Assembly: GCF_001592435.1 (NCBI RefSeq)
Contig: NZ_CP014750.1
Span: 62,001-126,000 of the forward strand
DNA from: Thermococcus peptonophilus
GTDB taxonomy: Archaea; Methanobacteriota_B; Thermococci; Thermococcales; Thermococcaceae
Direction of reading: 5' to 3'
Length of the DNA stretch: 64,000 nucleotides
Shown here: one piece after another, positions 10,335 to 47,441 of the stretch
Layout: every line of letters begins with the position of its first letter
How positions within the stretch are numbered: position 1 is the stretch's first letter
Notes under the pieces: model-generated
Database searches by the model: none
What the model was told of the DNA's origin: nothing
What the model saw: the letters and a program-made list of their open reading frames with translations, nothing else
Program-made: the position numbers and the translations under genes

Positions 10335-10430
10335 TTTTTGATTCTCCTAGAGTCTTATTGCAACGAACTTTAGTAGGGCGGGCTTAATCTACCTCCACCT
10401 CTTTCAATTCTCCTAGAGTCTTATTGCAAC
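10335..10430 (-). CRISPR. Two-repeat, one-spacer CRISPR locus
   Basis: Two near-identical 30-base repeats lie at 10401-10430 and 10335-10364, separated by a 36-base spacer (10365-10400). Read on the minus strand the repeat begins GTTGCAATAAGACTCTAG and ends GAGAATTGAAAG, a Thermococcales-type CRISPR repeat. The copy at 10335-10364 differs at three positions, all in its last six bases in that orientation. This is the usual decay of the last repeat and places the leader at higher coordinates. No cas gene is in the window, so processing must use Cas proteins encoded elsewhere. Confidence 0.85.
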
Positions 10431-11454: not shown

Positions 11455-11501
11455 GCCTTCACCCCCCAAGAGTTAAAAGGAAACCGCCCTAAGGTCTCCG
11501 G

Positions 11502-11553
11502 GCGATGACGACAATTTCGCTAGCTGACCCGTGATGAGTACCCTCGCAACCGA
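11502..11553 (+). ncRNA. Candidate C/D box guide sRNA
   Basis: In the 101-base gap between maf and the next gene I see box elements in order and at archaeal spacing: C-like GCGATGA (11502-11508), 15 bases, D' CTGA (11524-11527), 3 bases, C' GTGATGA (11531-11537), exactly 12 bases, D-like CCGA (11550-11553). The D' guide has CAATTTCGCTA, complementary to TAGCGAAATT, which I recall as a conserved 23S rRNA stretch (E. coli about 1930-1940). The C box and D box each carry one non-consensus base and no clear terminal stem is seen. Confidence 0.5.
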
Positions 11554-11555
11554 GC

Positions 11556-44910: not shown

Positions 44911-46137
44911 ATGAACATTGAAGAGCTTGTTGGTAGGGTGGCAAGCGGCGAAATTAAGCTCTACCAGGTCGAGAAGTACACGAACGGAGACAAAAAGCTA
45001 GCGACTGAAATAAGGAGAAAGGCCCTTGAGAAAAAGCTCGGGATAAAGCTTGAGAACATCGGGCACTACTCAATAGACCCTAACCAGGTCATAGGAAAGA
45101 ACATTGAGAACATGATCGGCGTCGTCCAGATACCGATGGGTGTCGCTGGGCCGCTTAAAATTAACGGTGAGTACGCGAAAGGGGAGTTCTACATCCCCCT
45201 CGCCACGACTGAGGGGGCATTGGTTGCAAGTGTTAACCGCGGCTGTTCTGCCCTGACTGCTGCTGGAGGCGTTAAGACGACCCTGATAGACGACAAGATG
45301 ACGCGCGCGCCACTTCTCAAGTGTCCTGACGCGAGGAGGGCAAGGGAAGTTGCAGAGTGGGTAAAGGACAACCTAGACTACCTCCAGGAGAAGGCCGTCT
45401 CAAAGGTCACCAGGCACGGGAAGCTGAGGGGTGTTAAGCCCTTTATCGTGGGCAACAACCTCTACCTCCGCTTTGAGTTCGAGACCGGCGATGCAATGGG
45501 TATGAACATGGTCACGATAGCAAGCGAGGAGATAATGAAGGTAATCGAAGAAGAGTTCCCCGATGTCAAGTACCTTGCGCTCTCCGGTAACCTCTGCGTC
45601 GACAAGAAGCCCAACGCAGCGAACTTCCTCCTTGGGAGGGGTAAGACCGTCATTGCCGAGGCCGTGATCCCTCGGAAGATCGTTGAGGAGAAGCTGAAGA
45701 CAACGCCTGAACTCATAGCCGAGGTGAACTACCGCAAGAACCTCGTTGGTTCAGCGCAGGCGGGCTCGTACGGTTTCAACGCCCACTTCGGAAACATCGT
45801 CGGCGCAATATTTCTCGCTACCGGACAGGACGAAGCCCAGATAACGGAAGGATCACACGGTATAACTCTCGCGGAGGTAACTCCGGAGGGGGACCTCTAC
45901 ATCAGCATCACCATGCCGAGCCTTGAGATTGGGACAGTTGGTGGGGGTACAAGAGTCCCCACGCAGAGGGAGGCTCTCTCGATTATGGGCGTTGCCGGAG
46001 GTGGAGACCCGCCGGGAACGAATGCCAAGAAGTTCGCAGAGATAGTCGCTGGAGCAGTCCTCGCTGGCGAGCTTTCCCTGCTGGCGGCGATAGCGGCGAA
46101 GCACCTGGCAAAGGCCCATAAGGAGCTTGGACGTTAG
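44911..46137 (+). CDS. hmgA: HMG-CoA reductase
   Basis: A 408-residue class I 3-hydroxy-3-methylglutaryl-CoA reductase making mevalonate, the committed step of archaeal lipid synthesis. Catalytic Glu lies in IPLATTEGALVASVNRG, the Asp in DAMGMNMVTIAS, the Lys region in GNLCVDKKPNAANF, and the general-acid His in AAIAAKHLAKAHKELG. No membrane domain is present, as expected for archaea. ATG 44911 follows GGGGGTGTTAAA. It is the second gene after a MinD-like ATPase and its stop overlaps the convergent gene by four bases. Confidence 0.96.
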   Translation: MNIEELVGRVASGEIKLYQVEKYTNGDKKLATEIRRKALEKKLGIKLENIGHYSIDPNQVIGKNIENMIGVVQIPMGVAGPLKINGEYAKGEFYIPLATTEGALVASVNRGCSALTAAGGVKTTLIDDKMTRAPLLKCPDARRAREVAEWVKDNLDYLQEKAVSKVTRHGKLRGVKPFIVGNNLYLRFEFETGDAMGMNMVTIASEEIMKVIEEEFPDVKYLALSGNLCVDKKPNAANFLLGRGKTVIAEAVIPRKIVEEKLKTTPELIAEVNYRKNLVGSAQAGSYGFNAHFGNIVGAIFLATGQDEAQITEGSHGITLAEVTPEGDLYISITMPSLEIGTVGGGTRVPTQREALSIMGVAGGGDPPGTNAKKFAEIVAGAVLAGELSLLAAIAAKHLAKAHKELGR

Positions 46138-46790
46138 ATTTCTTCTTGTTTTGGTTTTATTCTCACAACTTTGACTATTTTAACGCTCTTCTTTGCAAAG
46201 GGATCGTATGAGAGAACCTCAATGCCTTTGAGATAGAGAAAGGAGAAGGGGTAGTCGAGTGCAAGATATATCAGAAGAGTTAGAGCAAGCAGGAGAAGTA
46301 ACTGAAGGAAATAGTTCCCAGTATTGAGGAGGGATGAAAGAAGAAGACTGCCGAGAAAGCTTATCGCAAAGTTTATCTCGGAACGATGTTTGTACCTTCT
46401 CCCGCTGATTCTCTTTCCACCTATTACCCTAAGGAGTGCCTCGAGCGCTTCCCTACTCTTCACATTAAAAAAGAGGGTAAATTCGGGTTTGAGCCCTTCC
46501 TCGAGTCTAACTGGAGCCAGTGGAGCGGCCAGGTAGAACATCCTGCTCATTCCGTCGGTTAGCTCAATTATTTCAACTGCTTTTCCCGAGTAGATCCTGT
46601 CCGAGTAAGAGGCGAGAGTTTCGGGGTCGGGTTCAAGAAGCCTGACGAACTCAACTCCAGCCATTTTGAAAATCGTCTCAATCTTTGAGGCGCAGGTTGA
46701 AAGAACATCACACCTAATTTGCGCGTACATCACGTATTTTTTGGGCTTCCCAGTGGGAAGAACTCTGTGGAACTTTTCACCAGTCTCCAT
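46134..46790 (-). CDS. Membrane protein of unknown function (paralogue of the gene at 46899)
   Basis: A 218-residue protein. The N-terminal 135 residues are soluble (KKYVMYAQIRCDVLSTCASK, EFVRLLEPDPETLASYSDRIY, PEFTLFFNVKSREALEALLR). Then two hydrophobic segments follow (ISFLGSLLLSSLLNTGNYF and LLLALTLLIYLALDYPFSF) and a basic tail. I do not recognise the family. CTTTTAAAATC on the minus strand near 46815-46825 lies about 25-35 bases upstream of ATG 46790, with no ribosome binding site, so the message may be leaderless. It shares the L-x-EPD-x-x-TL motif with the gene at 46899. Confidence 0.7.
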   Translation of the reverse strand: METGEKFHRVLPTGKPKKYVMYAQIRCDVLSTCASKIETIFKMAGVEFVRLLEPDPETLASYSDRIYSGKAVEIIELTDGMSRMFYLAAPLAPVRLEEGLKPEFTLFFNVKSREALEALLRVIGGKRISGRRYKHRSEINFAISFLGSLLLSSLLNTGNYFLQLLLLLALTLLIYLALDYPFSFLYLKGIEVLSYDPFAKKSVKIVKVVRIKPKQEEI

Positions 46791-46874
46791 CAATCGAAAT
46801 ACTACTCCAGATTTTAAAAGCGTTGTGTTCTGAGTGGAAAAAGCTAAACCTAAAAACATTCCATGAGATGTTCA

Positions 46875-46940
46875 GAGGGGGATGATGAGCAGTTTCCCTC
46901 ACTCCGACCTGTGACGAGGAGCCGATGCTCTGACCCTCTT
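46875..46940 (+). ncRNA. C/D box guide sRNA candidate overlapping a gene end
   Basis: Box order and spacing are archaeal: C ATGATGA (46882-46888), 15 bases, D' CCGA (46904-46907), 3 bases, C' GTGACGA (46911-46917), exactly 12 bases, D CTGA (46930-46933). The flanks pair as a terminal stem of seven base pairs, two of them G-T (46875-46881 with 46934-46940). The D' guide TTTCCCTCAC is complementary to GTGAGGGAAA, which I recall as a conserved 23S rRNA sequence (E. coli about 465-475). It overlaps the 3' end of the minus-strand gene from 46899. Confidence 0.62.
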
Positions 46941-47399
46941 CTTCTGATAACCCCTGAGCACTCCACCGAGAAGGCTGAGAAAAAGTCCGATAAAGAGGAG
47001 CAGGTTGTTTATCTCGGAGAGTGCGTGATAGTAGTAGCCGACGTAGAACAGGATCCCTATGCCAGCCAGAACTAAAGCCCCGGTCAGGATAGATCTTCTT
47101 GAATCCCTACCAATTATATCCTCTGCCACTTTTGAGAGGCCTTTCTCCCTCTGAACAAGGAACTCATAAGCTTCTCTGCACTGAAGTTCCTCGATCTTGC
47201 CAGGAACAACGTAAATAACGGAATAATTGCCTGCAGTGGCATTCAGAACGGTTATTACCTCTGAAGTCTGAGCGACCTGAAAGAGAGCACCGGTGAGAGT
47301 CTGGGTGTCAGGCTCGAAAAGTTTGAGGTAGCCATTTATGTCAAGACCTCGAGGTTGATCGTCCATTATGCAGTAGAAGACGATAAACCTGGCTTTCAT
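46899..47399 (-). CDS. Membrane protein of unknown function (paralogue of the gene at 46134)
   Basis: A 166-residue protein with a soluble N-terminal half (MKARFIVFYCIMDDQPRGLD, YLKLFEPDTQTLTGALFQVA, YSVIYVVPGKIEELQCREAY). Two membrane segments follow (ILTGALVLAGIGILFYVGYYY, INNLLLFIGLFLSLLGGVL) and a basic tail. The layout and the L-F-EPD-x-x-TL motif match the next gene on this strand (46134), so they look like diverged copies. The 3' end carries the C/D sRNA candidate on the opposite strand. ATG 47399 follows GTGAGGGAA. The function is unknown. Confidence 0.7.
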   Translation of the reverse strand: MKARFIVFYCIMDDQPRGLDINGYLKLFEPDTQTLTGALFQVAQTSEVITVLNATAGNYSVIYVVPGKIEELQCREAYEFLVQREKGLSKVAEDIIGRDSRRSILTGALVLAGIGILFYVGYYYHALSEINNLLLFIGLFLSLLGGVLRGYQKKRVRASAPRHRSE

Positions 47400-47441
47400 T
47401 TCCCTCACAAAAGAGGATGGGAGAAAAAGGGCTTAAAAACT

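Follow-up and report, generated by a model that had tools for sequence, protein, structure and literature searches.

The window analyzed here, a 64,000-nucleotide stretch of DNA from Thermococcus peptonophilus, contains a putative C/D box guide sRNA gene on the plus strand at 46876–46939, which is antisense to the last 12 codons of a gene for a predicted membrane protein (46899–47408, minus strand; weak DUF2157 similarity, below the cut-off). The sRNA gene is matched at 88.7 bits (E ~1e-24) by a covariance model built from 28 copies, the window sequence included, and its stem may begin at 46874. Read 5′ to 3′, it comprises the 5′ arm of a terminal stem (AGAGGG, 46874–46879), a C box (AUGAUGA, 46882–46888), the D′ guide (GUUUCCCUCACU, 46892–46903), a D′ box (CCGA, 46904–46907), a C′ box (GUGACGA, 46911–46917), the D guide (GGAGCCGAUGCU, 46918–46929), a D box (CUGA, 46930–46933) and the 3′ stem arm (CCCUCU, 46934–46939). 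The C box shows no variation in the 28 aligned copies, nor does the D box in the aligned copies. As in archaeal box C/D sRNAs, the boxes C (RUGAUGA), D′, C′ and D (CUGA) follow in order with guides spaced at ~12 nt, and a terminal stem of 4–6 bp lies beside the C/D kink-turn; the D′ CCGA and C′ GUGACGA are a paired variant of the box consensus.

A sequence-only reading of this DNA had placed the four boxes at archaeal spacing with a 12-base C′-to-D interval, and its positions agree with the sequence, the interval measuring exactly 12 nt (46918–46929) and the D′-C′ linker 3 nt. The seven-base-pair terminal stem that it described has to be shortened to six Watson–Crick pairs in one register (46874–46879 with 46934–46939), or to four pairs, one of them G-U, in the alternative register, which leaves the customary single-base spacer ahead of the C box. 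The four-box pattern with its stem occurs once in the 64-kb window and in none of 40 first-order Markov simulations of it. The predicted folding energy of the isolated strand is uninformative (z −1.4), as is to be expected of an RNA with protein-dependent kink-turns. Elsewhere in the window, a two-repeat CRISPR remnant lies on the minus strand at ~10345–10430, where one repeat matches RF01319 and a degenerate-ended second copy follows after one spacer-length gap. For the minus-strand frame 46134–46859, the true start may lie downstream of the first ATG; a TATA-like element (TTTTAAAAG) is found inside the frame at ~46812–46820, and a Met at ~46790 fits better.

BLAST against 60 other genomes of the genus gave a match in 32, mostly over the sRNA alone (~39–97 of the 121-base query), and the limits of the conserved block are those of the sRNA gene, 46876–46939. 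With the covariance model, intact copies (>70 bits) are seen in 47 of 94 Thermococcaceae genomes, and, across 115 genomes of the phylum, nothing comparable turns up beyond the family. The terminal stem covaries across relatives: 88% of cells are paired, and in 12 both sides have changed; two of the four outer-stem pairs are constant. The copies with boxes, stem and covariation that the sequence-only reading proposed to look for in relatives are present, intact, in 46 other genomes of the family. In the genome G012, which we take to be Thermococcus kodakarensis KOD1, the orthologue lies at 795505–795568 on the minus strand, and a weak model match at 1446209–1446267 coincides with the published sR49 (1446209–1446268). 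Table 1 of PMC9014305, which lists circular sRNAs, does not include the T. kodakarensis orthologue.

The sRNA is absent from about half of the family genomes, so that neither of the two methylations predicted below is essential. Entire clades lack the sRNA (~27 Thermococcus genomes, as well as the g4 genus), a distribution that requires at least five changes on the gatE tree. Among genomes without it, the search for a substitute sRNA carrying the same D′ guide gave none with a perfect C box pattern. The single extra hit, in G064 (L082), is without further boxes. Three decayed copies score 43–48 bits with the model, in G029 (L015), G044 (L076) and G049 (L077); the G029 copy has lost its C box and has a mutated D guide. 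G009 carries two intact copies (L012 and L067) ~31 kb apart, only one of them over the membrane-protein gene.

The organism's own 23S and 16S genes were used for guide matching. The D′ guide, its first base unpaired with the target, forms 10 contiguous Watson–Crick pairs with 23S 494–503 (GUGAGGGAAA), and the base five from D′ faces A497, equivalent to E. coli A466. The D guide, near-invariant in intact relatives, forms 12 bp (11 Watson–Crick pairs and one G-U) with 23S 441–452 (GGCAUCGGCUCC), where the base five from D faces U445, near E. coli 416 in a region of approximate alignment. Against both rRNAs, 51 of 3000 shuffled D′ guides and 8 of 3000 shuffled D guides matched equally well, and the next-best in-register matches of the two guides were 8 and 7. 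When G-U pairs were counted, the real guides were not separable from shuffles, and the chance estimate is therefore drawn from Watson–Crick runs only. The sequence-only reading had paired the D′ guide with a stretch of 23S rRNA, and GTGAGGGAAA is present in the organism's own 23S; that part of its guide reading stands, but it overlooked the second guide, and alignment with the species' own 23S rRNA yields matches for both.

Both guides are thus complementary to rRNA and set the target base five positions away from the D or D′ box, as in archaeal box C/D sRNAs, and the RNA is a predicted dual guide to two nearby 23S sites, 52 nt apart. Dual guides to sites <100 nt apart are the rule for the rRNA-directed sRNAs of Pyrobaculum (PMC7994747). 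A chaperone role has been proposed for dual guides to nearby sites (PMC4644070, PMC7994747), and the RNA could serve mainly to hold the two 23S segments during rRNA folding, with methylation secondary. However, every box needed for methylation is intact and conserved, and we regard a primary chaperone function as unlikely.

The predicted dual guide can be assigned to a described family. RF00095 (snoPyro_CD) aligns with the window sequence over its full length at 30.3 bits (E 7.7e-05), below the curated threshold of 45. The Pyrococcus-type orthologues score 45.3–55.4 bits, all above 45, as do Thermococcus orthologues with a U-U pair (CUGA/GAUGA) at 47.9–49.8 bits; among scanned loci with a C-C or C-G pair, none pass. 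The 45 bits are an annotation cut-off, and orthology is shown separately, by the same two guides as in members above threshold. The window sRNA is thus a divergent orthologue of the RF00095 members, a family known from Pyrococcus, and itself falls below the family threshold because of its CCGA/GACGA kink-turn. It shares guides and boxes with the threshold-passing orthologues, whereas its D′ CCGA and C′ GACGA, and the gene that it overlaps, are different. The sequence-only reading had warned that scans confined to gene-free DNA would miss this RNA, a fair point to which the failure of the kink-turn variant at the Rfam threshold adds a further reason.

The dual-guide sRNAs of T. kodakarensis and P. 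abyssi (the sR series) resemble the window sRNA in length, box order, 12-nt C′-D interval, antisense 3′-end overlap and the possession of two rRNA targets <100 nt apart (PMC4247193, PMC7994747). No published sR number in the main text of papers on these series could be matched to it. The window holds a second C/D sRNA, sR39 (RF01122, 76.7 bits), on the plus strand at 11501–11555; it belongs to the same RNA class, but its guides differ and it is no orthologue, scoring 17.5 bits with the 28-copy covariance model.

The membrane-protein gene ends within the D′ guide, which puts the D′ box, C′ box, D guide and D box opposite its last codons, an overlap from 46899 that the sequence-only reading had seen. 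This is the usual arrangement in the group and no peculiarity: in T. kodakarensis, 16 of 17 antisense snoRNAs take in the 3′ end of a sense gene (PMC4247193). In the 18 genomes with the gene over the sRNA, the four-fold degenerate third positions of the codons GTC, GCA, TCG, GCT and CCT are invariant within the overlap, whereas codons upstream show the usual third-position variation, and the codon opposite the D′-C′ linker varies even in amino acid. Past the stop codon, conservation runs on through the D′ guide, the C box and the 5′ stem. In several genomes (G019, G015, G046 and G007) the sRNA lies 20–130 nt behind gatE with no membrane-protein gene over it. In the Pyrococcus-like genus (L060:1523–3061 and other Pyrococcus-type loci) the gene overlapped at its 3′ end is aglB, and the AglB tail reads VRASAPHHGSE because the last aglB codons are antisense to the sRNA. 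Where the gene is kept and the sRNA has decayed (G029 and G044), the tails have drifted to VRISAPRHWSE and VRVSAPPHHPE. The aglB product of G064, presumably P. abyssi, is identical to the PDB 3wov chain over the shared length; the tail VRASAPHHGSE belongs to that crystallized chain.

These observations bear on two further explanations. Since the sRNA is perfectly antisense to the last codons of the gene, it could be a regulatory RNA that acts on the overlapping mRNA at its 3′ end, whether in place of guiding methylation or alongside it, and secondary antisense effects are possible; such a role is improbable, given that the overlapped gene changes between lineages or is absent while the guides remain constant and complementary to 23S. 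That the block is conserved as the membrane-protein C-terminus (VRASAPRHRSE) with fortuitous box motifs can be dismissed: it is true that the gene crosses the block and that the 18 genomes share most of its last 11 residues, but the invariant degenerate positions, the gene-free copies and the overlap with the unrelated aglB mean that coding constraint cannot explain the block, which moreover extends into non-coding sequence, tolerates an amino acid change at the linker and gives way to drift in the tail once the sRNA decays. Conservation therefore goes beyond what the overlapping gene accounts for, since degenerate positions are fixed and genomes without the gene still retain the sRNA, as the sequence-only reading would have it.

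Upstream, a TATA-like element (CCTAAAAA, 46849–46856, plus strand) begins 33 nt before the C box; the match is weak, at 6 of 8 positions. Of 47 upstream regions, 39 have their best TATA-like octamer starting 29–36 nt ahead of the C box, and the A+T content is 85–98% at −31 to −26. An octamer held at this distance fits a transcription start at the stem, and the data are suggestive of an independent promoter.

The best explanation, to which we assign a probability of about 0.95, is that the locus encodes a functional archaeal box C/D sRNA on the plus strand, the Thermococcus orthologue of RF00095, predicted to direct methylation of 23S A497 and U445. The observed basis of this assignment consists of anatomy, conservation independent of the gene, complementarity to the organism's own 23S, covariation in kink-turn and stem, the promoter-like element and family membership, and it bears out the guide RNA originally read at this position. 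Transcription, RNP assembly and methylation would follow the established pathway. The sRNA would be transcribed from the plus strand and probably has a promoter of its own; L7Ae would bind the C/D and C′/D′ kink-turns, and Nop5 and fibrillarin would assemble on the RNA. In 23S, the resulting RNP would 2′-O-methylate A497 (E. coli A466), selected by the D′ guide, and U445 (E. coli ~416), selected by the D guide.

The variant boxes of the window sRNA point to a pattern within its C′/D′ kink-turn, where the 3b-3n pair joins base 2 of D′ to base 5 of C′ and the sequence reads CCGA/GACGA in place of CUGA/GAUGA; the D′ box of most relatives is CUGA. The two bases covary: across 50 copies the pair is U-U in 33, C-C in 11, C-G in 5 and U-A in 1, with no mixed pairs, so that all 50 are changed on both sides or on neither, and among 40 distinct cores the counts are 23, 11, 5 and 1. 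Placed on a gatE protein tree, the pairs require four changes for the C-C state and three for the C-G state, and therefore more than one inherited event. In the overlapping gene, the C′ change also replaces one residue (CGT Arg vs CAT His). As expected of archaeal box C/D kink-turns, the G-A and G-C (C box base 6/D box base 1) positions are invariant in intact copies.

The same rule is seen in unrelated RNAs. In 16 parsed published T. kodakarensis sRNAs (four more were unparsed, and one D′ box was re-read by eye), the 32 kink-turn pairs are U-U in 19, C-C in 6, C-G in 3, U-G in 2 and U-A in 2, with no mixed U-C. One A-C exception would arise in the outer kink-turn of L174, read by eye. The outer kink-turn of sR39 in the window, with C box AUGACGA and D box CCGA, also has the paired C-C form. 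The 3b-3n position of archaeal box C/D kink-turns has been described as strongly U:U (PMC5689011), and a two-sided coupling was not found described in the part of the literature covered.

In this lineage, then, the C′/D′ 3b-3n pair has switched repeatedly among U-U, C-C, C-G and U-A with no mixed U-C, and the rule holds in both kink-turns of the unrelated T. kodakarensis sRNAs. Because the 3b-3n pair controls ion-induced kink-turn folding, that is, folding in metal ions alone (PMC4382518), we offer the tentative proposal that Thermococcales may tune the protein-dependent folding of individual guide RNAs through this pair. As a simple rule, the coupled pair could also sharpen searches for archaeal C/D sRNAs.

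The locus illustrates why curated models miss such genes, through a compensated kink-turn change combined with gene overlap. It also offers a clear example of two unrelated proteins, the membrane protein and the oligosaccharyltransferase AglB, on which one RNA imposes a common C-terminal peptide, VRASAPxHxSE. For Thermococcus itself, the analysis adds two predicted 23S methylation sites.
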